Part shown: one piece after another, positions 17,735 through 61,595 of the stretch | Layout of the letters: each line of letters begins with the position of its first letter | How positions within the stretch are numbered: position 1 is the first letter of the stretch | Notes under the pieces: model-generated | What the model saw: the letters and a program-made list of their open reading frames with translations, nothing else | The model's database searches: none | What the model was told of the DNA's origin: nothing | Program-made: the position numbers and the translations under genes | Origin: Isoperla grammatica | Lineage: Eukaryota > Arthropoda > Insecta > Plecoptera > Perlodidae | DNA length: 64,000 bases | Assembly (NCBI GenBank): GCA_945910005.1 | Contig: OX246745.1 | Location: forward strand, 38,650,215 to 38,714,214 | Reading direction: 5' to 3'

Positions 17735-18015
17735 TTACGAGCTGCTAGATGAACAGCTAGAGGATGAAGAGCTGTCAACGTCAATATGAAGATCAGCACT
17801 TGATGACGAGGATGAAGAAGATGACGAAGACGATGAGGAAGATGAGCAAGACGAAGAGCTGTCGTCTTCAACATGAATGTGTAATTCGTCACTTGATGAA
17901 GAGCTCGATGATGATGAAGATGATGATGATGAAGATGAAGAGGAAGATGAGCAAGACGAAGAGCTGTCGTCTTCAACATGAATGTATAACTCATCACTAT
18001 CACTACTTGAAGAGC

Positions 18016-18046
<31 letters not shown>

Positions 18047-18710
18047 GGAAGATGACGAAGATGAAGAGCTGTCGTCTTCAATCCACAGATGGACTTCGTC
18101 GTCACTCGATGAAGAGCTAGACGAGCATGACGACGATGAAGATGACGATGATGAAGAAGAAGAAGAGCTGTCGTCTTCAACCCACAGGTGGACCTCGTCA
18201 CTTGATGAAGAGCTTGACGATGAAGACGATGAAGACGACGAACTGGAGTCGCAGCAATCTCTCTTCAAACGAGCGTCTCCCTCTTGAATGACTTCATTCG
18301 ATGGGTCGACGACAACAAACGCCTAGAAATAGAGAAACATTTATTTGTAAAATAATTTCACTTTCTAAACATGTACGATTGTAAGTATAGCTTCTTGTGA
18401 AGTGGCATTTATTTCCCTTACCACGGGTTCAGAGCTTTATCAAAACAATCTGGCTTGCTGATCCGTTTTATAATGGGATGTAACAATGTTGGTTAACATA
18501 TTGTTAGTAAACGCAACACTGCCAGAACAGGAAACAACTAGATTTAAACTTAAAGGCAAAACTTGAACTAGCATTTACGATTCATTTTTTGTTTTACAAG
18601 ATGTATACTGGTATGTCTATCGTGTGTTACTCGTGTGAAGGGTGAAATCCTCCTACCTGTGAGCCAGCATAGAGCGCAGCCAGAAGGCAGAATACCAAAG
18701 TGAGCTTCAT
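17735..18710 (-). CDS. Secreted poly-serine/acidic repeat protein, copy A
   Basis: A two-exon gene on the minus strand. Exon 1 is 18657-18710 (MKLTLVFCLLAALYAGSQ, a signal peptide) with donor GTAGGA. Exon 2 is 17735-18322 with acceptor TTTCTAG. The intron is 334 bp, phase 0. The predicted protein is 213 residues: signal 1-18, propeptide 19-39 ending in RLKR (furin-type R-X-K-R), mature chain from D40 beginning DCCD. The mature part has poly-Ser blocks, up to about 20 residues, separated by DEVHLWVEDD, DDEVHLWIEDD, DELYIHVEDD, DELHIHVEDD and ADLHIDVD. It is about 66% Ser with about 15% Asp+Glu and seven Cys. Start context is ACCACCATG and an AATAAA lies at 17583-17588 on the minus strand. Family unknown to me. 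It is predicted to be exported and a candidate for mass phosphorylation. An adhesive, mucous or mineral-binding role is inference. Confidence 0.88.
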
Positions 18711-18775
18711 GGTGGTCTAGTAGTTCTACTTGCTGGACACAGCTGAGACTGTTGATTCTCTCCTGAACACAGTTA

Positions 18776-18785
18776 CTTTTATATA
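18776..18785 (-). promoter_or_regulatory. TATA box of copy A
   Basis: TATATAAAAG on the minus strand, about 65 bp before the ATG. Transcription would start near 18750, giving a 5' UTR of about 40 nt. The box and about 170 bp upstream are conserved in all five units. Confidence 0.8.
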
Positions 18786-19029
18786 CAGCAGTAGGGATGT
18801 TTGTTTAGCACTTTTCTAACCTTGTTTGCGCCATCATAAATATTTCTTTTTACAGAAACGTGATAATATCGTCGAAACATTGTCCAATGTCAAATAAAGT
18901 TTACAGTTTCATAAAACATTCAAATCAAAACTTGAATGTATTAAGCACACGACTTCCTCTTTGGAGACTTTTGTTTGTTGTTATTGCATTTTACAACGCT
19001 TATATTAACTTGCCTTGTTTGTCTGGACG

Positions 19030-20220
19030 AAATCTTTGAATCGATATTCCACCTACTTCTAGTTGTTTGATCAAGCTGAAATTTTTTACACAGACGTATT
19101 CCTGATGACAATACATGAATCAACTGTCATATTTACTAAATTGTCAATTAATTCATCATAATTAATTAATTAATGTTTTACATGGAAATCGATGAATCTT
19201 TGAATCGATATTTCACCTACTTTTAAATGTCCGATCAAGCTGACATTTTGTACACAGACGTATTTCTAATGACAATACATGAATCAACTGTCATATTTAC
19301 TAAATTGTCAATTAATTCATCATAATTAATTAATTAATGTTTTATATGGAAATCGATGTTTAACCCACTTTCTAACGTTAAATCGAATTGAAAGTTTTTA
19401 CACAGACGTATTTCTAATGACGATACACGAATCAATTGTCATATTTACTAAATCGTCAATTAATTCATCAAAATTAATTAATTAATGTTTTATATGAAAA
19501 TCGATGTACAGTCCACTTCCTAACGTCAAATCGAGTTGAAAGTTTTTACACAGACGTATTTTTAATGACTTCACACGAATCAATTGTCATATTAACTAAA
19601 TAATCAATTAATTTATCATAATTAATTAATTTATGTTTTATATGGGAATCGATGTTTAACCCACTTTCCAACGTCAAATCGAGTTAAAAGTTTTCACACA
19701 GACGTTTTCTTAATGGCAATACACGAATCAATTGTCATATTAACTAAATAATCAATTAATTCATCAAAATTAATTAATTAATGTTTTATATGGGAATCGA
19801 TGTTTCACCCACGTTCCAACGTCGAATGGAGTTGAAAGTTTTCACATAGACGTATTCTTAATGACAATACATGAATCAATTGTCATATTTACTAAATATT
19901 CAATGAAGCCATCATAATTAATTAATTGATGTTTTATATGGGAATCGATATTTCACCCACTTCCGAACGTCAAATTGAGCTCAAAAAGTTTTCACACAGA
20001 CGTATTCTTAATAACAATACACGAATCAATTGTCATATTTATTAAATAATTAATTAAACCATCATAATTAATTAATCGATATTTCACCCACTTCCCAACG
20101 TCCGATCGAGCTGAAATTTTCACACAGTCGTATTTTCTAAATGACAATATATGAATCAATGATCAGATTCACTTATTAATTAATCCACTATGATTAAATT
20201 ATTAAACAATTAGCTTCATA
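19030..20220. repeat. ~147-bp minisatellite, about 8 copies
   Basis: Successive units begin with AATCGATRTTTMACCCACTT and include CACACAGACGTATT, GAATCAATTGTCATAT and a TTAATTAATTAA core. Periods are about 145-150 bp with a longer first unit. It is present only in unit A, within an insert between 18993 and 21456 that other units lack. Confidence 0.9.
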
Positions 20221-20576
20221 TGGGAAATTAGTCACAGCTAGTGAGGATGGGCCAACCACATGCAGGCATGGTTCGGGACTAAAATATCCGTGACGAAAGC
20301 ATCGGATATGTTTCTATGCAGCAAGAATGTCAACACGCTCCACTTGTAAGTATGGTACAACCCCGTGCGGTGAGTCATTCACCATGTACGCATAGGTGCG
20401 TTCCCTTCGCGTGGTTCGACCTCACAGTTGATCGTTGGTGTTAGTTGGTGGTAGTGCTCTCACAGTGCTCTCGGAGCACACTCTAAAAGATAAGGTCCAC
20501 TGATAGACCATCGGGTCTATCCTTTTTGCAACTCCCACAAATAAAATTTTACAAGTATACACTCTATTGCTAAAGG

Positions 20577-21108
20577 CAGTGGACGTGTCCGAATTCATCG
20601 AAAAATGTATACTTTTTATCTTAGCTCAAACTTGACATTGTGAAAAGTACGGTAGTGACGTAATTTCCAGTGTCTGAATTAGAAGTTTGCAAGTAGAAGT
20701 TGGCGAGACTGCGAGAACACAGATCATTCCTGTTCGTGCACTCAACTTGAGTACTTAAAAAAGTCATGGCAAACGCAAACACTACACGTGAGAAAATATG
20801 GAAACGTAAGTAACCATGCATTTAAATATTATGTATTGTAATAGGCCTAGATGTTTAAATGTTGACAAAAATTGCGTTTATGATCATTATTAATAGAATG
20901 TGTAGCCTATAGGCCTAGTTACTTTGCCAAATTCTCCCAAAGCCACATAACCCCACTTTTCATAAGCATTATTGGCCGATCGCTGGATCGTGCATGAACG
21001 GAACTGTCCGAAATTTAAGTTTGCAATGCGAGCACGCTAGTTTGCGAGTGAAGTTAACAAGTACAAGTACACAAGTATGCAGTCTTCTAAATTCGGACAC
21101 GTCCAGTG
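20577..21108. mobile_element. Short TIR element (MITE-like)
   Basis: CAGTGGACGTGTCCGAATT (20577-20595) is matched in inverse orientation at 21090-21108 with one mismatch. The 532-bp element has no ORF beyond chance. No convincing target duplication is visible. The CA(G/C)TG ends would suit a hAT-type MITE, but that is a guess. Confidence 0.6.
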
Positions 21109-21152
21109 AGCATATATTCGATTGCAAGATTCTTTAAGACTAAAAAGTATAA

Positions 21153-21456
21153 AATAATATTACATGAAAAAAATACTTTTTTTAAAAAACAACGCTTATA
21201 TTAAAATGCACTAAAAAGTAAAAAATAAATTTTCGCCCAACAAATTTTTGCCTCACTCGGAAAATAAAAGCATTGGGCGCTTGCGGTATTGACATAGATT
21301 GCAGTATTCTGCTGTTTATGCAGGGAAAGCGCCCAACGCTTTTATTTTCCGAGTGAGGCAAAAATTTGTTGGGCGAAAATTTATTTTTTACTTTTTAGTG
21401 CATTTTAATATAAGCGTTGTTTTTTAAAAAAAGTATTTTTTTCATGTAATATTATT
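21153..21456. repeat. 304-bp near-perfect palindrome
   Basis: Two 130-bp arms (21153-21282 and 21327-21456) are inverted copies with essentially one mismatch, around a 44-nt loop. The arms include AACGCTTATATTA, TTTTCGCCCAACAAATTTTTG and CCTCACTCGGAAAATAAAAG. An AACGCTTATATTA fragment also occurs at the left edge of the unit A insert (near 18994), so the palindrome arm may be the terminal repeat of the larger insertion. Confidence 0.93.
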
Positions 21457-21910
21457 ATTCAGTTGGATGACGAAATTTCAATGTTTCCGTTTATATATGA
21501 AGCGACGCAATATTTTTGTTTCACCGATTCCGTACGCGTCGCTGTATGCTCGTTATGATATACGAATCAAATGTTCACGAATGTCATCATCCTATTAGTC
21601 TTTTTGAGTAAAGCTACTTGTATTAAGCAAATACCTGGCATTTATTTACATTAACGTTATCCAACTTAAACACATTGTTTACGTTTAAAAAGTTTGTCGA
21701 GCGGGCAACGAATTTTCTCTACTAAACATGATATTATGCATTTGAATTTGGAGTTAAATATCTCTTAACATAAAAAATGATAGAACGATGGTTCAAAATT
21801 TGTTTGGAGAATAAATGTTGCATTAGGGCCAGGGCCCAGAATCAGAAAAGGTCTTAACATCAGCTAGGCTTACTGTAGGACACTAGATTATGGCACGTTA
21901 TTGGCTGATA

Positions 21911-22198
21911 CTTTAGGCACTTTCGGGAGTTTGTACTTTCGGGATTCTGTACATTTGGTAGATATGACATTCGTGAATATGCACTTTTGGTAAATTGCAT
22001 ATTCAACAATTTGCTCTTTCGGTAATAAAGATATTCGGTGGTTAAGACTTAGGTTAATTTGAGCATTCGTGATATCGAACTTTCGTGGTTTTGCTCTTTC
22101 GTTAAATTGGATATTCGTAGCTTAACACTTCGTTAAGTTATACTTTCGACGTGTTACACGTTCGTGATTTTAAACATTCGCGATTTTAATGGTCACGC
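21911..22198. repeat. Degenerate 16-17-bp minisatellite with TTCG core (unit A)
   Basis: About 17 consecutive short units of the pattern NACTTTCGTGATTTTG, in which TTCG or a one-base variant recurs every 16-17 bp. The same array is in unit B (26840-26862 and 27539-27800, split by an insertion), unit C (38820-38960 and 47834-47990, split by the LINE nest) and unit D (53795-54080). Confidence 0.8.
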
Positions 22199-24868: not shown

Positions 24869-25946
24869 TTACGAGCTGCTAGATGAACAGCTAGAGGATG
24901 AAGAGCTGTCAACGTCAATATGAAGATCAGCACTTGATGACGAGGATGAAGAAGATGACGAAGACGATGAGGAAGATGAGCAAGACGAAGAGCTGTCGTC
25001 TTCAACATGAATGTGTAATTCGTCACTTGATGAACAGCTCGATGATGATGAAGATGATGATGATGGAGATGAAGAGGAAGATGAGCAAGACGAAGAGCTG
25101 TCGTCTTCAACATGAATGTATAACTCATCACTATCACTACTTGAAGAGCACGACGATGACGACGATGACGAGGAAGATGACGAAGATGAAGAGCTGTCGT
25201 CTTCAATCCAAAGATGGACTTCGTCGTCACTCGATGAAGAGCTAGACGAGCATGACGACGATGAAGATGACGATGATGATGAAGAAGAAGAAGAGCTGTC
25301 GTCTTCAATCCACAGGTGGACCTCGTCACTTGATGAAGAGCTAGACGAGCATGACGACGATAAGGATGACGATGATGAAGAAGAAGAAGAGCTGTCGTCT
25401 TCAACCCACAGGTGGACCTCGTCACTTGATGAAGAGCTTGACGATGAAGACGATGATGACGACGAACTGGAGTCGCAGCAATCTCTCTTCAAACGAGCGT
25501 CTCCCTCTTGAATGACTTCATTCGATGGGTCGACGACAACAAACGCCTAGAAATAGAGAAAACGTGTATGCCTAAGATGCTTTCATTACTGATTACCTGC
25601 AGAGGGATATATAAGAAGGAAAATAGCAATTTAAAACGAAAAATGTTCGTAATCAAAATCTACTATTGCTTTTGTAGGTGTAATAGGTGTTTGGCATTTA
25701 CGAGCCTTTTCACAAATGGATGATGGATGGTGGATACCGCAATTATATTAAACTCATAGATACAACCATGAACGTCAACAATTAGAGAACGTTTGTGTCT
25801 AAAACTGTCGACACGAATTTCTTTATTTTAATTCCGATGTATACTGGTATGTCTATCGTGTGTTACTCGTGTAAAGGGTGAAATCCACCTACCTGTGAGC
25901 CAGCATAGAGCGCAGCCAGAAGGCAGAATACCAAAGTGAGCTTCAT
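24869..25946 (-). CDS. Secreted poly-serine/acidic repeat protein, copy B
   Basis: Exon 1 is 25893-25946 and encodes the same 18-residue signal peptide as copy A. Exon 2 is 24869-25546. The intron is 346 bp and its middle is unrelated to that of copy A. The predicted protein is 243 residues, with the RLKR site before DCCD. Six acidic spacers are present: DEVHLWVEDD, DEVHLWIEDD, DDEVHLWIEDD, DELYIHVEDD, DELHIHVEDD and the terminal ADLHIDVD. Relative to copy A, one extra DEVHLWIEDD plus poly-Ser cassette has been gained. Two Ser blocks carry single replacements (Leu and Pro). AATAAA lies at 24718-24723 on the minus strand, about 145 bp after the stop. Splice sites, TATA box and start context are intact. 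Confidence 0.88.
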
Positions 25947-26011
25947 GGTGGTCTAGTAGTTCTACTTGCTGGACACAGCTGAGACTGATGATTCTCTCCT
26001 GAACACAGTGA

Positions 26012-26021
26012 CTTTTATATA
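26012..26021 (-). promoter_or_regulatory. TATA box of copy B
   Basis: TATATAAAAG at the same distance from the ATG as in copy A, in near-identical flanking sequence. Confidence 0.8.
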
Positions 26022-28011: not shown

Positions 28012-31000
28012 CCTTACAAAAATTTTTAGTAGTCAAAACCTAGTCGACTAGGTTTTCAAGACTATTCTTTGACTAGTCTTTGACACACAACCGAATACTC
28101 GTTTTTTCTTACTAATACGCAGTGTCAAAGCATATCTGGAGCATATCTGGATATGTTTTGACTACCTTTCAACTACTAAATGGTGACCTCCAAACATCGC
28201 CAAAAGATAGTCATTACCTAGTCGAAACATAGTTGAATGAAAAAAAACATTCCTGAATATTTAAAGCATTGCCAAAAGGTAGTCATTCAATAGTTAAAAC
28301 ATAGCTGAATGTGTTCCAACTAACATTACGATACCAATTGGCAACCATTTAACTACTAAATAGCGACCTTCTGACAATGATGAAAAAACTACGGGTGCGT
28401 GGCTGGTGCTTGGCTCTATATAATTTATTCTTAAGATAGTAATTAATTACTACTGACCTGTGACTTTTATAGAGCCAAGCAAAGAAGCCTAGTTCCTCTG
28501 TTTTTTTTGTCAGAAAGCCTACCTCATCAAAAGGTTGCCAGGATCAGGACCATACTGGAAAGTGATTGTAGTGATCTTGTAAAATAATTAATGCAGCAAA
28601 TAATTGAATACGTTCATATTGTAATTTTATTTTAAAATACAGTAGGCTACAACTGGAATTATAATTGCACAATGAAAGCAGTTACAATAATAGGTCAAAA
28701 TTTCAAATCATTTTGTGCTTTTCTGACGACCTTAATATAATTTCTCTATTAGCTACAAACAAATAAAATAAACCCAATTGAACCTAACAGAAGAAGTCGA
28801 TGAATATATTATTAAGCGAGCGTTCCAATAGTACTTTTATGGCACTCGTTCTGTTTTTTTGTTAGTGTTTGTTTTTATGTCTCGCGATAGCAGTCAAACG
28901 GAGAATCTGATCAAGCTGAAATTTGGACCATCCACAAGCTTTGATGTGGATTGAAAGTGTATAGTTTTGTGGCAAAATCGTTCAAAAAGTTACAAAGTTA
29001 CACCACGGTTACTGAAAAATTATTTCTGATACAAAATGGTGGCAAAATGTGAGATAGCTATATTTTAACTAAGTTTTGTCTGGTCAGGAATATTTTCACT
29101 TTATGGCGATCTGAAGTATTGGAAAAGTTACACTAAGTTACTCGAAAAGAATATTTTTCTGAAACCTAGTAGGCCTACCGACAAAATGTGAGGTGGCTAT
29201 ATTATAGTTAAGTTTTGTTCGGTCACGAATATACTCATTTAAACGCGATCTAACAAGTATGAGGCAGAAATTACATTTCTATTTCTGTCAATAAGTATGA
29301 GTAACAGTGGTGGACTGCGTTTAAAATAGAAAACACTTGAAGAAATGACAACGAAAAATCTTAGCAACGCACACTGCACAACTTTGTTGGGAAATATAAT
29401 TAGCTAGGGAAATTAGAAAAATGTTTGCAATGCGCATTCTTATAGTTATTGTTATTTGTTAATTATTGTTGTTTTTATCTTTGTCTCTTACATTGAGAAC
29501 CTTCCTTATGGTGAATTACAATTAATTAAATCAAGTATCTAAACATGAGAAACATGCCTTGTTAATTAAAAAAGATTTTGTGATAGTATTATCACTAAAT
29601 CTTTTTTGTGACAGGAGAGCCTGTATACATTGTTAAGTCAATGTCAAAGCACAATTTTCTTGGTCAATACTGAGAAGTTATTTTGGTTGTTACGTTTGTC
29701 ATCGGGCACAGTTTATAGGCCATGTAGTTCCACTGACTCTGAAAAAAAAATAACAATTCACATTGATTTTAGCAGGAGCTGCATTGAAATTTACAACAAA
29801 TGCAACATTTGTAAAACTGCAACATTTTGTATTCTTATTAATGGGATGAATGTGTGGGGGGATGCCACAAGGAATCTGGATACAGTATAAGCCAATTGTA
29901 GTTATCTTTTCTGTTACTTTTGAGAATTTTGTAATGATAGGCTATTACTGCCATGTTACTGACACAAGTGACTACGTTACAGTAATGCGTTAGGGCCAAC
30001 GTCCGTTATGTTGCTACCCAGGTCTGCTATTACTGTGTAGACTCTTTCGATATGATTGGCTAGACTCTTGTTTAGGCATAGGTAGCTATGCCTAAAACAA
30101 GTACATGTACTTATTTTACGGGATTTTTTTACCAACGTCCAGTTGGTAAAACCGTCAATTGAAACATGGTCTTCACTTCACAATGTTGAAGTGGCAAACT
30201 TGCCATCGACATTCCACTACCATTAAACCAAATGACAGGTTCGGCCATCTTCTGTACTAGAGGCCTATAGAATGGTAGAATTACCAAATGATGCCATATC
30301 AATATTTTCATTAGCCTAGTTAAAGGAATTCATTGTCAAGTGTGTATTTTAGGGTAGTCCCTCGAGTCTCAATGCCAGTGGCTGTTTGTCTACTGCTTCG
30401 TACAGTAACTTATGCTAGTCGGCTAGCCTAGTAGCAGATGTAATCAATCGCAAGCACAAATCACAGATTCATACATGTGAGTAGGCCTACTATCGTGTGC
30501 TGTAATCGTCATGCATTTACGTTCTGCTTACTAGCCTACTAACCGACTAGGCCTAGCGGTACAAAGCAGTGGACAAACAGCCGCTGCAGTTGGGTCTCTA
30601 CCCTACAATGCACACTACACACAACAGTTTCATAGCCCAGGCCTACTAGGCCAATATTCAACAATTTAACTGAATTAGCCTATGGCTAGCAATTATGCTG
30701 TATGGCAATATTGACTCCAGGCAATTGATTACTGGTAGGATAATCCTATTCTTAGGCAGGCCATACAGCTCGGTCCACAGTAACATGGCCACTATAACGA
30801 TAGACCTACGCCTAACTGTAACGGCAAAGTTCGGCAACCTGTAAACGATAAAATTTGTTTATGTGTTGTACGACTCGATGCAGTAGCCTATGTTGTTCCC
30901 ATTACCGGAGTTGGCTGGAATCAGAATTTACATGGGTCTGCCTGCTATTTACGATGATAATATTTAATAAGTGTGTTATTAGGATTCTATTACTTTATTG

Positions 31001-32042
31001 TGCACTGCAGCATTTCCTGCTAGGCCTATTGTTACAGAATGTAGCCTAGTTGCCAGATATTGTAGGCCCAGCTTAGGAATAGGCCTAGGCCTATTGTAGG
31101 CTAGGCCTAGCCTACTGTAGTCTTTATTCTGAGTTTTTTCTGTAGGCCTACATTGCACAATAAAATAAGCCCATTCGTATTTATTGTGAAGCTGATAATG
31201 CTAGCCTAGGCCATTGTGTTTAATTTTAAACACAATGCCTAGGCCTAGGGCCCTAGGAGTCTAGCCTAGGCCTATCTAGGCCTAGCTTACTTGGGCGGGT
31301 ATTTATTATACAAAGGACCTTATATGAGGTAGGCATATGCTTGTTGAACGAGGCCAGCCTATCAAGTATGTGGTATGCTATGGTATTTGTGAGATCTACG
31401 ACCTAGATGCATTTAGGTTACGCCTAAAGTGAGGTTATGGTAGCCTAGGTAGGACTAGGCCCTAGGGCATTGAAACTTGCATCTACAGCCAAGGCATAAC
31501 GACAATACGCGCGACATTATACGTTTACCGTACATTCACTTTGTCCTAGATCACTTTATGTGTAAATATTAATCATTACCACTGTACTTACCGGAATTTG
31601 TCTGCCGTCGCATACACTTCCAAACCACACTCCCAACGTAATAAAAATGGCAGTTGGAGACCTCGGTGACGCGGGCAATTTCAAATTTCAAGATATCTGA
31701 CTAGCAATTTACGATGTTTCAGCGACGTTTTGATGATGGATGTTTAACTACCTTTCGACTATGTTTCTGCAACGTAGCTGATTGTGTTCCTGCGATGTGT
31801 TGGCGACGTTTTGATGATGGATACGTTTAACTACCCTTTGACTATGATTCTGCGACCTAGCTGATTGTGTTCCTGCGATGTGTTGGCAATGTTTTGGTGA
31901 TGGATTCTTTTAACTATCATTTGGAGATGTGTAAGATAGCAACCAAAAGGTCTGCAACACATCGTTGACTATGTTTTGGTGATTGAACGACCATTTAGCA
32001 ATGTTTTAACTCATCTTTGACTACTAAAAATTTTTGTAAGGG
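28012..32042. mobile_element. 4.0-kb non-autonomous DNA transposon with perfect 27-bp TIRs
   Basis: CCCTTACAAAAATTTTTAGT plus seven further bases (28012-28038) is repeated exactly in inverse orientation at 32016-32042. Unit D is continuous across this point (ACACACAGAGCTTTC), so insertion is certain, with a probable 2-bp AG duplication. Subterminal regions contain repeated AACATAGTTGAATG / GTTTTGATGATGGAT phrases. No ORF above about 90 codons exists and none resembles a transposase. The interior (30480-31290) is very rich in AGGCCTA. Confidence 0.88.
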
Positions 32043-35562: not shown

Positions 35563-36769
35563 TTACGAGCTGCTAGATGAACAGCTAGAGGATGAAGAGC
35601 TGTCAACGTCAATATGAAGATCAGCACTTGATGACGAGGATGAAGAAGATGACGAAGACGATGAGGAAGATGAGCAAGACGAAGAGCTGTCGTCTTCAAC
35701 ATGAATGTGTAATTCGTCACTTGATGAACAGCTCGATGATGATGAAGATGATGATGATGAAGATGAAGAGGAAGATGAGCAAGACGAAGAGCTGTCGTCT
35801 TCAACATGAATGTATAACTCATCACTATCACTACTTGAAGAGCACGACGATGACGACGATGACGAGGAAGATGACGAAGATGAAGAGCTGTCGTCTTCAA
35901 CATGTATGTATAACTCATCACTATCACTACTTGAAGAGCACGACGATGACGACGATGACGAGGAAGATGACGAAGATGAAGAGCTGTCGTCTTCAATCCA
36001 CAGATGGACTTCGTCGTCACTCGATGAAGAGCTAGACGAGCATGACGACGATGAAGATGACGATGATGAAGAAGAAGAAGAGCTGTCGTCTTCAACCCAC
36101 AGGTGGACCTCGTCACTTGATGAAGAGCTTGACGATGAAGACGATGATGACGACGAGCTGGAGTCGCAGCAATCTCTCTTCAAACGAGCGTCTCCCTCTT
36201 GAATGACTTCATTCGATGGGTCGACGACAACAAACGCCTCGAAATAGAGAAAACATTCATTTTTAAAATATATACAAATATTAAGCATGTAAATGGACAT
36301 ATAAGATGGTTAGTTGCAATTTCTGAAGTGGTATTGTTCTTAAAGGATGTGATCCAAAGAAATGTGAAAATGAGCCGTTCCCGCATAATCACACATTTAT
36401 CTTCACAAATGCGGTTTCCCGTTTGTTTCATGATTCTTGGTTAAGTCGTTCAGTAGCTACAGCCGATTTTCTAAAGTGCCTCTCTCGGCTCTGACGTCAC
36501 CAGGCCAGGCTCAGCAGGATGGCCCGCGAGGACTATAATTGGGTCGAGAGGAACGGTCAGGACTGTGATTCCCTGTGCAACTTTTACATCGTTATTTACA
36601 CACACAAGCATGCATTGTGTTTGGTGTCTGCCTGCCTGCCTGTCTGTCTGTCTGTCTGTCGGTCTGTCTGTCTGTTTGTCTGTCTGCCTGCCTGTCTCTC
36701 TATTTGCCTGACTGTCTGTCTGTCTCTCTGTTTGTCTGTCTGCTGTATCTCTGTCTGTGTGGATGTCTG

Positions 36770-36800
<31 letters not shown>

Positions 36801-38083
36801 CGTTTGTCTGTCTGTCTCTCTGTCCTCATCATCATCATTATCACCATCATCACATTGCAAGTACACACAAAGTACTTCCTGTCCAGGGGGGTGAGTCTCG
36901 ACTTTTTTTTCCACGTGGAATGACTGCTTTCCACGCTTACTTTCGACAATCGGTAGTCTCGACGTACTTTCGATTCCTATTCCGCGTTGAAGAAAATGAT
37001 TTCGATTTTTTGCTACCATCTTGCTGTCGGAAGTACATTTGACAGACGAAAGTGATGTCAGAGTTTCACGTGTTTCATGGCAAACGGACGATTCAAAGAA
37101 GAGTAGGGCTTAAATATCGTATAACACAGGTATACTTAGGTAAAAACAGATCAATTAAATTAAGTTATGGATGAGTGAAGTACAATAAACTATTTAAAAG
37201 CAATAATTCTATTTTTTAGTAGGCCTGAGGCTCTAGGCCTTAAACAGCCAAATCAGTACACAATTAAGTTAGCTAGTTGTAAGCCGCAGCCGTGTGTGAT
37301 ACGGTGATTGCGTCCGCGCTTTGCACCAAGGAATCTCGGGTTCGATACGCGACACATCCGTTTTTGTTTCGCTCTTATAATCTAAAGGGTTTGCACTTGG
37401 CATACACATGAATTGAATATATCTTACTTTAAATGAAATTTCGGGTTTTTAGTCTAGTCTTTGTCTGGCATGTTTTGTAGGCCTGGCATCTTTAGCCTTT
37501 TTACGAACGTATAATTATGTAATTAAAAACTGCTTTGTTTAATAAAAAACATGTGATGCTACTGCTAGTGTATTGTGTTGCCATTTGGACAAGTTTAATC
37601 CGTGCATCTGCAATAACGACAACTACTATTGATAATTAACATAATAATAATAAGGCGTCGAAATAATTATCTTGCAATTTTGACTACGATACATTTGTAC
37701 CATCTTAAAAAATTCAAATGACTGGCTCAAAACCACGCCCCTCTTCATTACGATGCTTCTAAATTGCTAAAAAGCTGAGACATTTTGGTCTTCGCCACTA
37801 GTGACGGAATCCTACGTGAATTTCAATAAACGCTTCCCATAGTCGGAAAACAAAACTCGAGACTATAAGAAAATTCGGAATTGCCATTCCATGCATGCAT
37901 CCTCCCAGGAAATAACGATGATAACGTGGCAAAACTGAAAATACCATTAAAGATTTACTTTTTGTTTCGTACGAGGTAGACTAGATTATCTATTGTGTGT
38001 TACTCGTGTGAAGGGTGAAATCCTCCTACCTGTGAGCCAGCATAGAGCGCAGCCAGAAGGCAGAATACCAAAGTGAGCTTCAT
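35563..38083 (-). CDS. Secreted poly-serine/acidic repeat protein, copy C
   Basis: Exon 1 is 38030-38083 (signal peptide identical to copy A). Exon 2 is 35563-36237, after a CGAG acceptor that differs by one base from the CTAG of the other copies. The intron is 1792 bp and contains a TGTC-type microsatellite and a repeat shared with copy E. The predicted protein is 242 residues. Spacers in order are DEVHLWVEDD, DDEVHLWIEDD, DELYIHVEDD twice, DELHIHVEDD and ADLHIDVD, so the DELYIHVEDD cassette is duplicated compared with copy A. AATAAA lies at 35412-35417 on the minus strand. An alternative in-frame Met upstream at 36300 belongs to the intron and is not a start. Confidence 0.88.
36630..36830. 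repeat. Imperfect (TGTC)n microsatellite in intron C
   Basis: About 200 bp of TGTC/TGCC-type repeats with interruptions, followed by a few ATC repeats near 36828-36840. Long Cys/Leu/Ser or Asp/Arg/Gln ORFs across it are artefacts. Confidence 0.95.
36885..37215. repeat. Intron C copy of a ~330-bp dispersed repeat
   Basis: Contains GGTGAGTCTCGACTTTTTT, TTCCACGTGGAATGACTGC, CTTACTTTCGACAATC and, further right, GGGCTTAAATATCGTAT. The same blocks occur in reverse order and orientation at 61085-61415 in intron E. Confidence 0.75.
37216..37980. other. Remainder of intron C, no feature recognised
   Basis: AT-rich intronic DNA. A tRNA-like patch with a B-box-like GGGTTCGATAC near 37350 may be a SINE remnant, but it has no cloverleaf. 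No ORF is worth reporting. Confidence 0.4.
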
Positions 38084-38148: not shown

Positions 38149-38158
38149 CTTTTATATA
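38149..38158 (-). promoter_or_regulatory. TATA box of copy C
   Basis: TATATAAAAG, with position and context as in the other copies. Confidence 0.8.
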
Positions 38159-39545: not shown

Positions 39546-39697
39546 TTATAGAATATTGCTTATATTATTGATGTTTTAGTTATATTATATAGTACTGTAT
39601 TTTATTAGTATAATTTTCTATTGTAGTCTATTTAGTATTGCAATTAATACACACATAATAAAATTGTATAATTAATATTAGCAAAAATATTAGCAAT

Positions 39698-41137
39698 TTG
39701 TCAATGAATATCATTGAGGATGAAAACGATGTAGAATACGAGACACTTGAGCACATGAACACATTCGAGCTACAAGACACATTTGAGAAATTGCATGACC
39801 TAAAGATAATCCATCTTAACATTCGTAACATTAGAAAACATTTCGATAAACTAATTACACTATCACATGACACGCAAATAAATTTTGATCTAATTATACT
39901 AACAGAAACCCAATTAAAAGAAAGCGAAAACGTTTACAATATTGATGGCTATACAAGCTATCATTTTACATCTAAACTAACGAGTCATGATGGGATAACA
40001 GTAATCGTAAACAATAATATACATGACACATTGGAGATTAAAGCCCACACTCAAATAACACAAGCAAATGGAGCTTTAATTAAGATCACAAAGAACAATG
40101 AGACATTCACAATTCTAGCCATATATCGATCCCCATCTAGCAATGTACAAATATTTAATGACGAGCTCGCAACACAAATTGGATCACTAAACAGCACCTA
40201 CAACTTCATAATTGGTGATATTAATATTAATATATTTGAAAAACCTAATGAAAAATCCCAAATAGTGGAAGATTATCTAAATACTCTGTATTCACATGGT
40301 TATGTTTCATACATAAACGAGCACACACGTGTCACCAGTAACACAAAAAGCTGTATAGATCACATATTTATAAAAACAAAAAATCATGAGGGATGTACAG
40401 CGAGTATATTAAAATCAGCAATCACCGACCACTACCCCATATGCTTTGGTCTTGATAAGCATTCAAATCGGGCAATCAATTTATTAGCTACGTCGTCTAA
40501 ATACAAACCAATAAATGTCATAATTAATGATATAACTTTAAATAACTTCCTTGAGAAAGAAACATGGAGAGATGTTCTATTGGAAACTGACTCGAACAAA
40601 GCTACAGACAAATTGATGAAATTGCTTACTAATTATATAAATGCATCTAGTAAACCAGTAAAACATAGATCGAGTGAGAGACGTCTGAAACCTTGGATCA
40701 CAAACGGTCTTGTTAAGTCGATTCGCACTCGAGATAAACTAAGCAGGCAATCTCTCAAAAACCCCGACGACACTGCGCTAAGAATAAAATACAAACATTA
40801 TCGTAATCATCTAACCAAAATCATTAAATTAACTAAAAATAATTATTACAAAGAAAAAATACAGGAAGCAAACAGAAATAATGCAAAAGTATTGAAGGTA
40901 ATTAATGAAGTAACAAATAATAAATGCTTATCCAAAAATATTGACAAAATACAAACAGATCAAGGACTTATGAAAACTACAGATAATCCCAAAATTGTCG
41001 CCGATTCTTTCGTGGACTTTTTTAGTAATATTGACAAGGAAATGGCAGACAATATTCTACGTAGACCTTCCCGAACCCACGGTACTGACTGTACCAGTGC
41101 ACTATCAGCAAAATTCAATATTTCTACACCCACTTGA
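39698..41137 (+). pseudogene. LINE apurinic-type endonuclease and linker
   Basis: A 479-codon open frame. Endonuclease blocks are HLNIRNIRKHFDKL, LTETQLKES (catalytic Glu), LAIYRSPSSN, FIIGDININ (GD.N block) and ITDHYPICFGL (the terminal D-H pair). These define the APE fold used to nick target DNA. The C-terminal 200 residues are a basic linker before the RT. The frame ends at a TGA and RT sequence continues in another frame from about 41100, so the protein is interrupted. Confidence 0.85.
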
Positions 41138-42974: not shown

Positions 42975-43020
<46 letters not shown>

Positions 43021-44841: not shown

Positions 44842-45219
44842 TGTCGCAGCACAAACAAACACACACACACACAGAATCAAAGTTCAACGGCGACTAATGA
44901 CACGCCAAGTACAACAAATCAGAACCTAAGGGAGGCGGCGAGTCAAAGCCTAGGCGGTAGGGTGACGGTAGGGGGTAGGGGTAGGGTAGGCCGGGTCAGC
45001 TGATATGGTACCAGTAAGCTACCATCACAAGTAACTCAATATATCACGCATTTTGTTCTAATACTTGCCGCATCGATAATTTCCGGGACATGAGAAACGT
45101 GTATCACAATTCCGGGACATTTAAGTGCTTTTCAAAAAATCTTCGGGACGCCGGGACAGAGTGTAAAAAAACGGGACTGTCCCGGGAAATCCGGGACGTA
45201 TGGTCACCTTACTCCTAGT

Positions 45220-47313
45220 CCATGCGGCAGTGTGGTACTTACACGAGTTGAGGACATGTGGTAGCGTTTCAAGTCCATAGTCACACCTACGACAGTTTTT
45301 GGGTGCGTTTCCGTATCTCCGAGTACCATTCAGCCCCACCGTATCTAAACATGCTTTTGAAACAAACCGCCAGTCACAAAACCGTGTAAAGCGTCCAGTA
45401 GCCATGAAATGGTTACTAACCAGGGACTGACATGAATGCCTGAACACTTTTCCTTGGTCAGGTTTTTGAAGCAGTTTTAACTTGTAACTATGGCGGAGTC
45501 CATTCCGTAATTGGCTAGCCAGATATCCACGAGCCTTGGGTGGTATTATATGTCTTTCAGGGTTTCTATTTGGCATGTCGATTGTTATGGCTATCTCATC
45601 CTTTGCCTCACTGTACCCCCACTGACACCCAATACTTGCTTGAAGTCTTCTAGTAGCACTGCGTGCTCTTGTCCAAATGGAACTGATGTCATTACTTCTT
45701 CCCCCCAGCTCTCCGTCCATGCTTCCTGACAAGTACTGGCAGCAGTCTTCAACCCTTGGTTCCCTGCCAATCCGTTTCTTAACTACATCCTCTAAGGAAG
45801 CCCACGCAATGTCTTTACATAGTGGATCATTACACGTAAGAAGGCGAAACGGATGCGCAACTGCCAGCACGTCTACTGAGTCACTGGTTGGTAGAAGACC
45901 TGCCCCACCCTCAGCCAAGGGCATGTAGACTACTTCAGCACTGGCACGTCGAGGAAGTGACATCCATCGTTTTGCAGCTGCCTTCATTTTCCGGTCGAAC
46001 TTGTAAAACAGTGTCTTCTTCATCCCTTCCCCACGCATAATAAACTCGAAGCGTGGGAGAAGGAAAGTTCGCACAGCATCTAATTTCTGCCAAAGGGCTA
46101 AAGGGGAAATATCAATTTTGTGAAGATCTTCACACATCCTATCTAGCTCAGCCACTGGCGTTTGCTGGACATGAAATCCAGTAGGAACACCAAGATACTG
46201 GTAGGCCTCTCCATCTGCCAAGGCTTTCATCGGATTTCCTTGTATATGGAATATAGTGGGGAGGGCGTCTCTTTTTTTCCTACAGTCAATGCTAACAGAG
46301 GCACACTTCTTAGGATTAAAGGACAGGCCTGCCCATTCGGCTGCCACTCCCGCCACTCTTAAAAGACGTCTAAGGGCCAATTTATTCTTAGCTGTTAGCA
46401 CAAGGTCGTCTGCATAAGCCAACACCGATATTGAATGCTTATAAAGTTCAGCCCCACAACTGTCACCCAAATTTGTAATCGCCCTAATAATGGGCTCAAT
46501 TGCTAAATTAAACAGGATTGGGCTTAGTAGACACCCTTGCTTTACTCCAGCTTTCAGATCGATATCATTTGTATAGCCTTGCCCTGTCCGAACTTTTGTC
46601 ACACTACCCTTGTACATGTCTGTTATTATCTCTAAGACGTCTTCTGGTACACCCAGCAAACGAAGAGTTTCTTTCATATACTCATGTGGCACTGATCCAA
46701 ATGCGTTTGAAAGATCCAGCCAGGCAGCATATAGTTCTTTATTGTGCCTTCTGCTGTTATCAGTTATCGATTGCAACACAAAATTGTGCTCTAAGCACCC
46801 TTCAAATTCCATAAACCCCGTTTGCATCGGCGATATAATAATATTGTTCTTGGTAGCCCAGTTCGACAGCCTTCCCCCTAGGATACCTGCATACAGCTTG
46901 CTCATAGTTGACCCTAAGGTTAGTGGCTGCCAGTTGGATAAATCATCCCTACTTCCTTTACCTTCATAGATGAGTACTGTTCTTGATTTTTTCCAAGCCA
47001 ATGGAACTTGTTTTGCCCTAGGGCAGATGTTAAAAATAGAACACAATAGTTGGCATTTAGTATCTACTTTCTTTAACAAGCTATATTTAATGAAATCAGC
47101 AGGAGCAGAGTCTTTTGTGGAATTAAGGCGTAATCTGATCTCACCTGCCGTAATAGGGCGGGATATGTCACCATCCTCAGTAGTTGTTGTCTGCAAATTT
47201 GGTATTATATTTGGTGGTGGCGTCCATTTGTAGTTAGGGTTACTGAATGCATTTGTGAAGTACTCTTCCACAATATGTTTATCTACTTTACAGAATGGTG
47301 AAGAACCTTGCAT
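45220..47313 (-). pseudogene. R2-like LINE reverse transcriptase
   Basis: An open frame of about 698 codons up to the hAT insertion. RT motifs are NSTKDSAPADFIKYSLL, RDDLSNWQPLTLGSTMSKL, AAWLDLSNAFGSVPHEYM (motif A), AGVKQGCLLSPILFNLAIEP (motif B) and VLAYADDLVLTA (YADD). Conserved thumb YQYLGVPTGF and the knuckle CRRCDYGLETLPHVLNSCKYH follow near the insertion site. A TAA stop just upstream of the first Met separates it from an in-frame SRLQKLYRVSKKTAFE segment, so the original ORF extended further 5'. The trailing residues before 45121 come from hAT sequence. Confidence 0.85.
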
Positions 47314-47479
47314 TATTTATTCAAATGCTGTCTTTTTACTCACCCGGTATAGCTTCTGTAAGCGACTTGTCTCATTACCATGCTCTCGGTGTCCAACCCT
47401 CTGATTACCTTCTACTGGATCTTGCGCTGGCTGATTAGGAATTTGGTTGTGAACAAGACGTTCATTCCGCCTCCCAGGC

Positions 47480-47505: not shown

Positions 47506-47510
47506 ACATC

Positions 47511-52092: not shown

Positions 52093-53059
52093 TTACGAGC
52101 TGCTAGATGAACAGCTAGAGGATGAAGAGCTGTCAACGTCAATATGAAGATCAGCACTTGATGACGAGGATGAAGAAGATGACGAAGACGATGAGGAAGA
52201 TGAGCAAGACGAAGAGCTGTCGTCTTCAACATGAATGTGTAATTCGTCACTTGATGAACAGCTCGATGATGATGAAGATGATGATGATGAAGATGAAGAG
52301 GAAGATGAGCAAGACGAAGAGCTGTCGTCTTCAACATGAATGTATAACTCATCACTATCACTACTTGAAGAGCACGACGATGACGACGATGACGAGGAAG
52401 ATGACGAAGATGAAGAGCTGTCGTCTTCAATCCACAGATGGACTTCGTCGTCACTCGATGAAGAGCTAGACGAGCATGACGACGATGAAGATGACGATGA
52501 TGAAGAAGAAGAAGAGCTGTCGTCTTCAACCCACAGGTGGACCTCGTCACTTGATGAAGAGCTTGACGATGAAGACGATGAAGACGACGAACTGGAGTCG
52601 CAGCAATCTCTCTTCAAACGAGCGTCTCCCTCTTGAATGACTTCATTCGATGGGTCGACGACAACAAACGCCTAGAAATAGGGAAACATTTATTTGTAAA
52701 ATAATTGCACTTTCTAAACATGTACGATTGTAAGTATAGCTTCTTGTGAAGTGGCATTTATTTCCCTTACCACGGGTTCAGAGCTTTATCAAAACAATCT
52801 GGCTTGCTGATCCGTTTTATAATGGGATGTAACAATGTTGGTTAACATATTGTTAGTAAACGCAACACTGCCAGAACAGGAAACAACTAGATTTAAACTT
52901 AAAGGCAAAACTTGAACTAGCATTTACGATTCATTTTTTGTTTTACAAGATGTATACTGGTATGTCTATCGTGTGTTACTCGTGTGAAGGGTGAAATCCT
53001 CCTACCTGTGAGCCAGCATAGAGCGCAGCCAGAAGGCAGAATACCAAAGTGAGCTTCAT
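52093..53059 (-). CDS. Secreted poly-serine/acidic repeat protein, copy D
   Basis: Exon 1 is 53006-53059 (same signal peptide), exon 2 is 52093-52671, and the intron of 334 bp is nearly identical to that of copy A. The predicted protein is 210 residues. Spacers are DEVHLWVEDD, DDEVHLWIEDD, DELYIHVEDD, DELHIHVEDD and ADLHIDVD, as in copy A. Poly-Ser lengths differ slightly and there is a Cys in the block before DELHIHVEDD that copy A has as Ser. AATAAA lies at 51942-51947 on the minus strand. All gene signals are intact. The 3' flank resembles copy C more than copy A. Confidence 0.88.
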
Positions 53060-53124
53060 GGTGGTCTAGTAGTTCTACTTGCTGGACACAGCTGAGACTG
53101 ATGATTCTCTCCTGAACACTGAGA

Positions 53125-53134
53125 CTTTTATATA
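53125..53134 (-). promoter_or_regulatory. TATA box of copy D
   Basis: TATATAAAAG, with position and context as in the other copies. Confidence 0.8.
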
Positions 53135-56857: not shown

Positions 56858-57471
56858 GACGTCACAACGCCTGGGGCGAAACATTTTTTCTTGGATTTCA
56901 AGTGCTGGGTTACACTAGGCAACTTGACACATGCACTAACCGTTACAGATTAGGCTTACAATTACACGTTTTAAACGAAATGTGAGGGTCTAGTGGGCCT
57001 TTAATGCTTAGGTTTTACTCACGGACAGACCCAGTGACGCGCTGATCGTCGAACATTCCTGCACCGGGCAGCAGGACGCACTATCTATAGATCGAGGACA
57101 CCAGAGAGAGAGAGAGACAGTTGGCCGAAACCCCGCTATATATATCGGAAGTCAATTTACTACCTACCCGCGGCCATGACGTAATTGTTATACACTTACG
57201 ACAGTCCCGGGTTTGATTCCGATAGTTATGACTCATGTTTAGCCCGACTGCTGAGGTTGCACCGTTAGCCAATTGCCGTTCTCTGTACACTGGCTCATAC
57301 TTAAACAATGTTGCTTCAGCCATGTGCAATCATTATGTCATTATGATGAAAATGTCTCAGAACACTATTCTAATCGTTGTCGAAATAACAATAAAAAAGT
57401 GTTGAAACAACCTGTTGAGTACTTACGCCCTTTCCTTATGGCTAACGAAATAATGCTCCCAGCATCCATTA
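56858..57471. other. Unclassified DNA between long-TIR element and unit E
   Basis: Sequence not shared with other units. It has a GAGA run near 57105 and a B-box-like GGGTTTGATTCC near 57210 that may be a SINE remnant. No credible ORF. Confidence 0.4.
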
Positions 57472-58688
57472 CAATGTAAACAAATTGTACTGTTGTAACT
57501 TAAACCGCCAGGTTGTAAAAAAATTATATGTTCATTATAGAGATATTTTTTTTAAAGAGTAATAATATATGCAAATATCTTGTTTGATTTATTGAAAAAA
57601 AAATCGCACATTTGCCAACGTGGAGCGTTTTCCTAGTAATGAATAGTATAACAACTAGATCGAGATAAGTGTTGCGTGTTACGCACGAGAACCCGCCCGG
57701 ACAATAGGACTTGTACCAAGTAAGTCACCAATATATTCGAATATTGTGTAGTAATTTATTGGCACTAAAATCATAAATGATTAATTGAATTCGGAGTAGT
57801 TTTATGTATTCTGGAAACAGAAGAACAAGTACTTTTTTTAAGACTGAATGAGCCTCTCGGGAATGCCCATTTGTCCACCCTGAGTTTCAAGCTACCACAT
57901 CTCGTATTTAACTGTAGACACATATAAAACCAATCAAATTATTGTAGCCATCTTATTTAACTTTCATGTGAAAAATCATTTGAACATCTTCTGTCATTTT
58001 AAAGTATAATTTATGAATATCTCACGACACTGTACCGGCCTGCAGGCATACACATCTAGTGGGGTAACGCATTGTGGTAAAGGTTGATCAACCAAACTCA
58101 CCGACAGTGCTGCGATCTCTTATCCGTTGCGCCTCCCAATTTAACGAAGGTCCTTGGTCAAGGATCAAGCGTTAGGTCAAACTTGAACTTTGTTTGTTAT
58201 TTCTAGTTCGGTTAAGTATAAAATGTGGACACAAAGGATTCTACGAACATTAATCAAATACCATCTTGATATTCTGTTGTTCTTCGTTCAATTTAATGCC
58301 TTCACATAAATGTAAATTTAGGTAAAATGTCATATGACATATTTAAGATAATATTTCAATACAACCGCCTTCTTTCGTGCTATTTAAAGTATTTTCTAGA
58401 CACCTGAAGTCACCTAGCTATTAAATAAAGAGAGAAATACCTTCTTTGTTGTAAAGATTGCAATTGGGGTAAATGGAAGATCATATTCCTACGTATAAAT
58501 GAAAGCACACAATGTTTTTGAGGACGAAAAATTTATTTTTATTTCATTCAGAACAAAGTAGAGGTAGCCAAATAATTAGTGTACAAGATAATTATTACCC
58601 ACAAGAAACGAACTTAACAAGTTATATCATAAGATTTTACATTCACCGTTTGATTTGAGTTAGAACGGCCAAGTGGTTAGTTAGCTCC

Positions 58689-59065
58689 TTACGAGCTGCT
58701 AGATGAACAGCTAGAGGATGAAGAGCTGTCAACGTCAATATGAAGATCAGCACTTGATGACGAGGATGAAGAAGATGACGAAGACGATGAGGAAGATGAG
58801 CAAGACGAAGAGCTGTCGTCTTCAACATGAATGTGTAATTCGTCACTTGATGAACAGCTCGATGATGATGAAGATGATGATGATGAAGATGAAGAGGAAG
58901 ATGAGCAAGACGAAGAGCTGTCGTCTTCAACATGAATGTATAACTCATCACTATCACTACTTGAAGAGCACGACGATGACGACGATGACGAGGAAGATGA
59001 CGAAGATGAAGAGCTGTCGTCTTCAACATGAATGTATAACTCATCACTATCACTACTTGAAGAGC

Positions 59066-59096
<31 letters not shown>

Positions 59097-61595
59097 GGAA
59101 GATGACGAAGATGAAGAGCTGTCGTCTTCAATCCACAGATGGACTTCGTCGTCACTCGATGAAGAGCTAGACGAGCATGACGACGATGAAGATGACGATG
59201 ATGAAGAAGAAGAAGAGCTGTCGTCTTCAATCCACAGGTGGACCTCGTCATCGTCACTTGATGAAGAACTTGACGATGAAGAAGACGAGCTGGAGCCGCA
59301 GCAATCTCTCTTCAAACGAGCGTCTCCCTCTTGAATGACTTCATTCGATGGGTTGACGACAACAAACGCCTAGAAATAGAGAAACATTTATTTTAAAAAT
59401 ATTTACAAATATTAAGCTTGTAGACGGACGTATACGGTATTTGTTTAGTTTCACTGTTCGCGCTTCTTACTCACTTTTTCCAATGAAAAACGCCAAAGTC
59501 TTGTTTAAAGTGTTATTTTTATTGAACAATGTTTAATTGTCTTTCTTTTGATGCTTATTATAATATTGTAGTTAGTTTTTAAGAGTAATAAATGAATGTT
59601 TGAAGTTTTTATATGAAAAGTTGGCGTCTTCTTCCTTGTTTCCTGCTTGTGTCCGGTGCAGTGCTGCCAATGTAGAAGGTAAAATAACGAAATCACTGCA
59701 TAATTTGAAGAAGGGGTATTTAATCAAAGGGGCCTAGTTTGCACGTACATCCAAAACCCCCCCATAACCTCTGGCAAACTATCCAAAACCACCCCCTTAC
59801 CTCGGGCCAAGTCACTTTCGGGCGCAAGAGGTAGGGTTTTTTCATGTACTTACGTTGGTAGACCACCCTTTATGTGTGCTCCGAACAGCTGCGCCCTCGC
59901 ACGTCCACCATATTGCCATATTTAACGTGATTGTGTTGTCAAATCGATGAAATTTCAAAACGATAATTTAATATGAAAGAAGAGACTATTTGTATTGAAA
60001 ATCACTGGAGCTTACAGATAAATCATGAAGTAACAATTATGTACTGCGCATATGATTAATATCGCAAAGGAATACAGAAAAAAAGTGAGTACGAAACGCG
60101 ATCAGTGATACTAAACAATTACCACATATACGATGTTCAGTTGCGGTTTCTGAAGTAGTATTGTTCTTAAAGGATGTGAAATCCAAGGAAATGTGAAAAT
60201 GAGCCGTTCCCGCATGATTACACATTTATCTTCACGAGTGCACTTTCCCGTTTGTCATGTGATTCTTGGTAAAGTCGTTCAGTACTTACAGATGATTGTT
60301 TAAAGTGCCCCCCTCGGCTCTGACGTCACCAGGCCAGGCTCAGTAGGATGGCCTGCGAGGACTTAAGTTCGTCTCTTCATAACATGCACGCACACCGGTA
60401 AAGAGGACTCCTCAAAGGGCGGCTTATTTCAGCTCACTGTGCAAGGTACAGTTCGTCTCTATCCAAGATACACGCCGGTAAAGAGGACTCCTCAAAGGGC
60501 GGCTTATTTCAGCTCACTGTGCAAGGTACAGTTCGTCTCTATCCAAGATACACACCGGTAAAGAGGACTCCTCAAAGGGCGGGTTATTTCCCGCTCACTG
60601 TGCAAGGTACAGTTTGTCTCTATCCAAGATGCACACCGGTAAAGAGGACCCCTCAAAGGGCGGCTTATTTCAGCTCACTGTGCAAGGTACAGTTTGTCTC
60701 TATCCAATTTACACGCCGGTAAAGAGGACTCCTCAAAGGGAGGCTTATTTCTCGCTCATTGTGCAAGGTACAGTTCGTCTCTATCCAAGATGCACACCGG
60801 TAAAGAGGACTCCTCAACGGAAGTCTTATTTTCTGCTTACAGTGCAAGGTAGTAATCGTCAAGCCTGTCGCCAGGAGTGATGCACAGTTTAAAAATGCGA
60901 CCACCAATGATTTCTATTCAAGTAACAAAAACCACCTGCTTGACAATAGCAAAGATGGGGGCTCAGGATTTGGTCCTTTTTCAAAGGGTCAACCATAATT
61001 TTCTCTTGCTCCAGAAAAATGACATCACCAAATGAATGAGCCTAATTGTGTACTCATTTGGCCGTTTTGGATACAGGACCCTAGGACTACAAAAAAAAAA
61101 TTGCTTTTTTAATAGTTTATTGTACCTCAGTCATCTATAACTTAATTTAATTGATCACTTTTAACCTGAATTTACCTAGGTAATACGATATTTAAGCCCT
61201 GCCATTCTTCAAAGCATCCACTTTACTTGCAGCAAATGATGCTCTGACGTCACTTTCGTCCGTCGAATATACTTCGGACAGCAACATAGTGGAAGGAACC
61301 GAAACCATTTTCATCATCGCGTCATAGTAATCGAAAGTACGTCGAGACTACGGATTGTCGAAAGTAAGTGTGGAAAGCGGTCATTCCACGTGGAAAAAAC
61401 GTCGAGACTCACCCCCTCAGGAAATAACAATAAAAACGTGCCAAAAATTACAATACCATTTACGATTCATTTTTTGTTTTACAAGATGTATACTGGTATG
61501 TCTATCGTGTGTTACTCGTGTGAAGGGTGAAATCCTCCTACCTGTGAGCCAGCATAGAGCGCAGCCAGAAGGCAGAATACCAAAGTGAGCTTCAT
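58689..61595 (-). CDS. Secreted poly-serine/acidic repeat protein, copy E
   Basis: Exon 1 is 61542-61595 (same signal peptide), exon 2 is 58689-59369, and the intron is 2172 bp and includes a minisatellite and an inverted copy of the intron C repeat. The predicted protein is 244 residues. The propeptide has an Asp-to-Asn change (VVVNPS), and the mature start is DCCG in place of DCCD. Spacers are DDDEVHLWIEDD, DDEVHLWIEDD, DELYIHVEDD twice, DELHIHVEDD and ADLHIDVD. The doubled DELYIHVEDD is shared with copy C. Two AATAAA hexamers lie at 58532-58543 on the minus strand. It is the most diverged of the five but fully open. Confidence 0.87.
60366..60850. repeat. ~80-bp minisatellite in intron E, six copies
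   Basis: Units contain GTTCGTCTCTATCCAAGAT, ACACCGGTAAAGAGGACTCC, TCAAAGGGCGGCTTATTTC and GCTCACTGTGCAAGGTACA. Period is 79-81 bp. ORFs reading through it repeat the same peptide and are not genes. Confidence 0.95.
61085..61415. repeat. Intron E copy of the ~330-bp dispersed repeat (inverted)
   Basis: Matches 36885-37215 in reverse orientation, including GATTGTCGAAAGTAAG, GCGGTCATTCCACGTGGAA and GTCGAGACTCACC. Confidence 0.75.

Follow-up and report, generated by a model that had tools for sequence, protein, structure and literature searches.

Five tandem genes for predicted secreted poly-serine proteins in Isoperla grammatica, nearly alike at silent sites

Poly-phosphoserine secretions serve as models both of underwater glue and of mineral control. 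The serine runs of Pc-3 from sabellariid worms, like those of Sa-3C, come with tyrosine. Passages of PMC12621633 describe Pc-3 as 72.9 mol% serine and up to 90% phosphorylated, Sa-3A and Sa-3B as 228 and 216 residues long, and Sa-3C as SY-rich and then GY-rich, and report that Sabellaria cement cells express FAM20C candidates. FAM20C, a serine kinase of the secretory pathway, is said in part of PMC7948968 to phosphorylate the poly-serine of phosvitin without its usual motif, and in marine glues phosphoserine is thought to provide Ca2+-mediated cohesion in addition to adhesion (passage in PMC6262867). Other serine-rich or acidic materials include dentin phosphophoryn, composed nearly exclusively of Asp, Asn and phosphoserine (passage in PMC4094399); sea urchin phosphodontin, with 35 EISSGEGEQPK-type repeats and an Asp-rich C-terminus (passage in PMC2830187); and the sea cucumber Cuvierian tubule, where a section of a review (PMC12472103) lists an acidic adhesive with phosphorylated serine and repeat proteins without orthologues. 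Here we describe five two-exon genes for serine-dominated proteins on the minus strand (copies 1-5: 17735-18710, 24869-25946, 35563-38083, 52093-53059 and 58689-61595) in a 64,000-nucleotide stretch of Isoperla grammatica DNA (GCA_945910005.1, contig OX246745.1, forward-strand positions 38,650,215 to 38,714,214), hereafter the window. We see about an even chance that they form a tandem array in concerted evolution, supplying in quantity a secreted polyanionic structural protein for adhesive or structural material.

The five genes lie where an initial annotation of the window had placed them, and their anatomy is largely as it described (Table 1). Exon 1, 54 bp long and identical at the DNA level in all five copies, encodes the 18-residue putative signal peptide MKLTLVFCLLAALYAGSQ, and exon 2 opens with the 21-residue propeptide AFVVVDPSNEVIQEGDARLKR, which ends in RLKR in every copy and carries D24N in copy 5. 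At the level of motifs, this layout of hydrophobic signal (mean hydropathy 2.45 over residues 3-15), propeptide and R-X-K-R site, present in all five copies, points to secretion with predicted cleavage by a convertase. A TATA-type box, TATATAAAAG, begins 75-76 bp 5' of the ATG, which itself stands in the context ACCACCATGA, and 145-146 bp 3' of the stop there is an AATAAA; box, context, reading frame and AATAAA are intact in 5/5 copies. The introns are all in phase 0, with donor CAG/GTAGG and acceptor AG, and measure 334, 346, 1792, 334 and 2172 bp in copies 1-5; the two long ones contain a TGTC microsatellite (copy 3, 36625-36824) and an 80-bp minisatellite (copy 5, 60391-60851). The acceptor reads CTAG in copies 1, 2, 4 and 5 but CGAG in copy 3, and because a G preceding AG weakens splice acceptors, copy 3 may be spliced less efficiently; the annotation's claim of intact splice sites throughout was thus slightly overstated. 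No sixth copy was found in the window, where all 10 tblastn matches and every match of three DNA probes lay within the five genes.

The whole proteins are 210-244 residues long. Their mature chains, described beforehand as about two-thirds serine with cysteine and short acidic spacers, proved to be 64-66% Ser (111-131 residues), with 27-34 acidic residues (Asp 11-12%), 7-9 Cys (4-5%), 6-7 His and 1-2 Tyr. Lys and Arg are absent from the mature part of all five copies, as are Asn and Thr, and Pro occurs once, in one copy. Each chain starts with DCC, ends with SSSSSSCSSSSS and consists of units that join a serine run to Cys and to a short acidic spacer (DEVHLWVEDD, DELYIHVEDD or DELHIHVEDD, with ADLHIDVD as the final one); the longest serine run is 16-20 residues, depending on the copy. 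Copies differ by entire units, the extra one being of the DEVHLW type in copy 2 and of the DELYIHV type in copies 3 and 5. The serine codons are a mixture of TCA, TCT, TCG, AGC and AGT with little TCC, and there is therefore no pure trinucleotide tract. An AlphaFold2 model built on the five sequences (shallow alignment; mean pLDDT 38) places a helix at residues 3-14 and a pair of short strands in the propeptide, and gives the mature chain no such element, a result consistent with disorder.

In all five copies the mature part is also free of stops in its +1 frame (17738-18259, 24872-25483, 35566-36174, 52096-52608 and 58692-59306), which would give a His/Arg/Leu-rich product. We rejected dual coding: when synonymous codons are permuted, this frame stays open in 60-100% of the 1000 trials run for each gene, compared with 7.9-15.5% of permutations under flat codon usage, and its H+R content is about 1 s.d. 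or less from permuted values. The open +1 frame is thus explained by codon usage.

This composition bears on two other accounts of the protein. The layout of signal, propeptide and RLKR, with DCC at the mature N-terminus, would suit the precursor of a Cys-bearing defence or signalling peptide in which poly-serine is a mere spacer; we consider this very improbable, as RLKR is single, the absence of K or R beyond it leaves no further basic site for cleavage, and the poly-serine units make up nearly the whole chain. A sericin- or mucin-like glue component, its serine runs bare or O-glycosylated, would share the very high serine content, the apparent disorder and the secretion signal. Mucins contrast with chains that have no Thr and almost no Pro, however, and acidic residues at serine runs better fit acidophilic kinases, so that this account, too, is quite unlikely.

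Set beside the described systems, the predicted chain resembles Pc-3 and the Sa-3 proteins, with which, as far as the cited passages describe them, it shares secretion, dominance by serine, an expected polyanionic state and similar length; it differs in its furin-type site, in having few Tyr and several Cys, and in serine runs that are interrupted by Cys and by acidic His/Trp spacers. The chain has long serine stretches in common with phosvitin, the FAM20C substrate of PMC7948968 (in the part cited), but phosvitin is cut from vitellogenin, whereas here a short stand-alone pre-pro protein has no Pfam domain at cut-off. Dentin phosphophoryn, a SIBLING protein, is similar in extreme serine and acidic content and in intrinsic disorder; against its description in PMC4094399, the chains have unbroken serine runs with Cys, spaced acidic blocks, His/Trp/Tyr spacers and no Asn. 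Phosphodontin is likewise a secreted acidic repeat phosphoprotein, yet neither the repeats nor the Asp-rich C-terminus given in the passage of PMC2830187 occurs here. Judged from sequence, the chains lack one defining feature each of phosvitin, phosphophoryn and phosphodontin. The Cuvierian tubule adhesives, compared by the description in that review section only, are similar in including an acidic adhesive with phosphorylated serine and, as separate entries, repeat proteins without orthologues; these repeat proteins differ in being predicted almost entirely beta-sheet.

The same polyanionic composition would suit a secreted polyphosphoprotein that controls minerals or stores ions or phosphate, being of phosphophoryn, phosvitin or casein type and having no adhesive role. 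Many FAM20C substrates serve mineralisation or nutrition (part of PMC7948968), and the sea urchin tooth provides an acidic repeat phosphoprotein (passage in PMC2830187). A plain mineral binder would not be expected to have Cys in nearly all units and a hydrophobic/His spacer, and DSS repeats, EISSGEGEQPK-type repeats and a vitellogenin domain are all missing; we regard this account as possible but somewhat unlikely.

Searches for relatives agree with the earlier statement that no named family is recognisable. Residues 1-70 yielded four candidates, none with E <= 1, and a profile of the five sequences, with 7984 candidates sharing most words scored, matched three proteins at E <= 10, the best a hypothetical Ixodes protein at E = 2.7. 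Sa-3 was not among these E <= 10 matches, its presence among the scored candidates being unconfirmed. Four pattern matches in viral contigs gave none that was confirmed, Pfam and NCBIfam returned no family (DUF7009 at E = 0.28 in 1/5 members only), and solved structures gave six weak, composition-type matches, the best (E = 0.024 and 0.05) to designed WRAP-T repeat proteins; likeness to poly-phosphoserine adhesives is, as had been proposed, a matter of composition. Within the listings and passages covered, the literature on secreted poly-serine proteins offered analogues only, and six peptide strings of the family were found in no paper searched. Because spliced, repetitive genes may escape gene callers and assemblers, absence of relatives is weak evidence; as far as these searches reach, the family appears to be an orphan variant of the secreted poly-serine kind.

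The case for concerted evolution comes from the uneven divergence of the array. The units surrounding the genes are duplicated at ~79-97% identity and broken up by insertions. Within the first 43 and last 76 codons, 0/69 four-fold sites vary among the five copies, compared with 163/634 gap-free flank columns (Fisher p = 4e-9, indicative, as the test takes columns as independent). Between any two copies, 0-8 of the 106-123 four-fold sites compared differ, and each of the 10 pairs falls below its own flanks (p 0.019 to 1e-6); the highest values (5-8) are those of the four pairs with copy 1, inflated by a register shift that aligns the last 15 of 18 serines with a 15-residue run, and were still counted.

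The border of identity lies near the coding limits, though not precisely on them. Upstream of the ATG 25 bp are identical across copies, and at the start of the intron 5 bp are identical in all, with 2/30 columns variable shortly afterwards. Before exon 2 only the acceptor AG is common to all five, 2/15 columns being variable next to it and 8-11/15 deeper in the intron. Past the stop the first difference comes at base 2 (copy 2) and the next at base 7 (copy 4), while copies 1, 3 and 5 are identical for 31 bp; variable columns number 4/30 and then 12/30 in the following 30 bp. Homogenisation of both exons from a cDNA template is disfavoured by the divergence of this post-stop region, which would be part of any cDNA.

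The history of the copies is a mosaic. The closest pair is copies 3 and 5 in the 3' flank (4.5%), copies 1 and 2 in the 5' flank (4.8%) and copies 1 and 4 in the intron, where these two are 99.4% identical. From ATG-41 to the stop (17735-18710 and 52093-53059), copies 1 and 4 are separated by two intron differences, one coding substitution and one 9-bp indel, yet they differ by 6% in the 270 bp upstream and by 19% in the 380 bp downstream (20% in another alignment); their longest identical run is 422 sites with the gap removed, against a maximum of 217 in 2000 permutations. Among the other introns, that of copy 2 has ~57 bp at its start in common with the others (84-96%) and 15 bp at its end with copy 1, and those of copies 3 and 5 match each other at the ends and in two internal blocks, of which one is inverted. 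The conflict of closest pairs between regions, together with the block joining copies 1 and 4, points to gene conversion or recombination between copies, and because the borders of identity adjoin the coding limits, selection on the coding sequence is suggested to act as well. That direct constraint alone holds the silent sites is unlikely. Four of these points go beyond the initial annotation: that silent sites are nearly identical, that copies 1 and 4 have a mosaic history, that copy 3 has an unusual acceptor and that the mature chain lacks Lys and Arg.

Exon 2 is built of 96/105-bp tandem repeats and lies within a retroelement-rich region, as might be expected of a non-functional, minisatellite-like exon amplified by recombination. 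We simulated neutral decay by mutating the coding sequence of copy 4 along a five-branch star, with 400 runs per rate and branches of half the mean pairwise flank divergence (0.033 for the 5' flank, 0.083 for the 3' flank) or of 0.02. All five frames stayed open in 0/400 runs at either flank rate and in 0.75% of 400 at 0.02. The final 210 bp have two variable columns, whereas simulated means were 33, 74 and 20 and minima 20, 57 and 8 for the 0.033, 0.083 and 0.02 branches. Five intact genes exceed the expectation from chance, and with frames, signal, RLKR, TATA box and poly(A) signal intact in every copy, a non-functional exon is the most improbable of the accounts weighed here.

A concertedly evolving array for a secreted structural polyanion, for which we count the shared gene anatomy, the decay simulations, the invariant four-fold sites, the copy 1-copy 4 block and the lack of Lys and Arg, suggests a mechanism. 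Late in the secretory pathway, a convertase would cut at the furin-type site RLKR and free the mature chain, and a FAM20C-type kinase would phosphorylate the poly-serine runs; features of FAM20C substrates are present (3-4 S-x-E motifs per chain in addition to the serine runs), phosphorylation itself being predicted. Granules would hold the polyanion in condensed form, together with Ca/Mg or a cationic partner, and outside the cell it would form a Cys-cross-linked glue, slime or matrix. The alternating V-H-L-W-V / L-H-I-H-V spacers might act as strand or metal contacts, with His and Trp binding metal or stacking and Cys linking chains, all of which are guesses from composition. Copy number would set the dose, and conversion or recombination plus selection would keep the copies similar. 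By analogy, the chain would work like sabellariid Pc-3 or phosvitin, although kinship with them was undetected in our searches.

Several observations weigh against this proposal. Tyrosine, the source of DOPA in many marine glues, is nearly absent, and no gene for a cationic partner was seen in the window. A strict chain from S-x-E to S-x-pS reaches 16-32 of the 111-131 serines, which argues against full phosphorylation by the canonical rule. The AlphaFold2 model gives the spacers no strand, within the limits of its confidence and shallow alignment, and a strand or solenoid fold of the spacers was rejected on the same grounds. We advance only tentatively, as a rather unlikely possibility, that the array represents an independent origin, outside sabellariid worms, of Pc-3-like poly-phosphoserine secretion, with Cys in place of the worms' Tyr and coding identity, silent sites included, achieved through largely exon-confined conversion.

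Which features of such secretions matter would be easier to tell with a second, apparently unrelated family, whose modules combine a serine run with Cys and an acidic His/Trp spacer and which has a furin-type site and lacks basic residues; the modular chain is also a polymer open to expression and testing. The array is also a clear case of exons alike at silent sites against drifting introns and flanks, useful for studying how tandem structural genes stay uniform.

Table 1. Positions of gene features in the window, counted from its first base
Feature	Position	Strand	Remark
Gene 1 exon 1, signal peptide	18657..18710	-	
Gene 1 exon 2, propeptide ending RLKR	18260..18322	-	
Gene 1 exon 2, mature poly-Ser chain (174 aa, 5 units) + stop	17735..18259	-	
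Gene 1 TATATAAAAG box	18776..18785	-	consensus match only
Gene 1 AATAAA	17583..17588	-	
Gene 2 exon 1, signal peptide	25893..25946	-	
Gene 2 exon 2, propeptide ending RLKR	25484..25546	-	
Gene 2 exon 2, mature chain (204 aa, 6 units) + stop	24869..25483	-	
Gene 2 TATATAAAAG box	26012..26021	-	
Gene 2 AATAAA	24718..24723	-	
Gene 3 exon 1, signal peptide	38030..38083	-	
Gene 3 exon 2, propeptide ending RLKR	36175..36237	-	CGAG acceptor precedes
Gene 3 exon 2, mature chain (203 aa, 6 units) + stop	35563..36174	-	
Gene 3 TATATAAAAG box	38149..38158	-	
Gene 3 AATAAA	35412..35417	-	
Gene 4 exon 1, signal peptide	53006..53059	-	
Gene 4 exon 2, propeptide ending RLKR	52609..52671	-	
Gene 4 exon 2, mature chain (171 aa, 5 units) + stop	52093..52608	-	
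Gene 4 TATATAAAAG box	53125..53134	-	
Gene 4 AATAAA	51942..51947	-	
Gene 5 exon 1, signal peptide	61542..61595	-	
Gene 5 exon 2, propeptide (D24N) ending RLKR	59307..59369	-	
Gene 5 exon 2, mature chain (205 aa, 6 units) + stop	58689..59306	-	
Gene 5 TATATAAAAG box	61662..61671	-	
Gene 5 AATAAA	58538..58543	-	

The rest of the window is rich in transposons and repeats. A Tx1-like LINE occupies 2261-6454 on the minus strand, with a reverse transcriptase frame at 3869-6454 and, beside it at 2261-2938, an open frame of 225 codons. Of 1137 matches for the reverse transcriptase frame, the 120 listed include an unnamed protein (79%), the Xenopus TX1 protein and, as the first with named organisms, proteins of the fish Muraenolepis (43%) and the dragonfly Ladona (49%). 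Further retroelement frames lie within 6756-10286, 39662-41137 and 45121-47316, with reverse transcriptase at 8430-10286 and 45121-47316 and an endonuclease-type domain at 39662-41137. Rfam and tRNA scans of the window gave no match, and known repeat-end motifs gave nothing decisive there. A large inverted repeat at 13724-17064 has arms (13724-15232 and 15549-17064) whose alignment of 1518 bases shows 95% identity, and 148-bp tandem units lie close to its outer ends; a 148-bp unit also forms a tandem array at 19202-20076 (5.9 copies, 86% matches). The window has 16 occurrences of the string TAGGCCTA, where base composition leads one to expect 0.8, and copies or near copies of it are numerous around 31000-31300 (30500-31300 and elsewhere). 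At 63468-63955 a 261-bp unit stands in exact tandem (1.9 copies, 100% matches).

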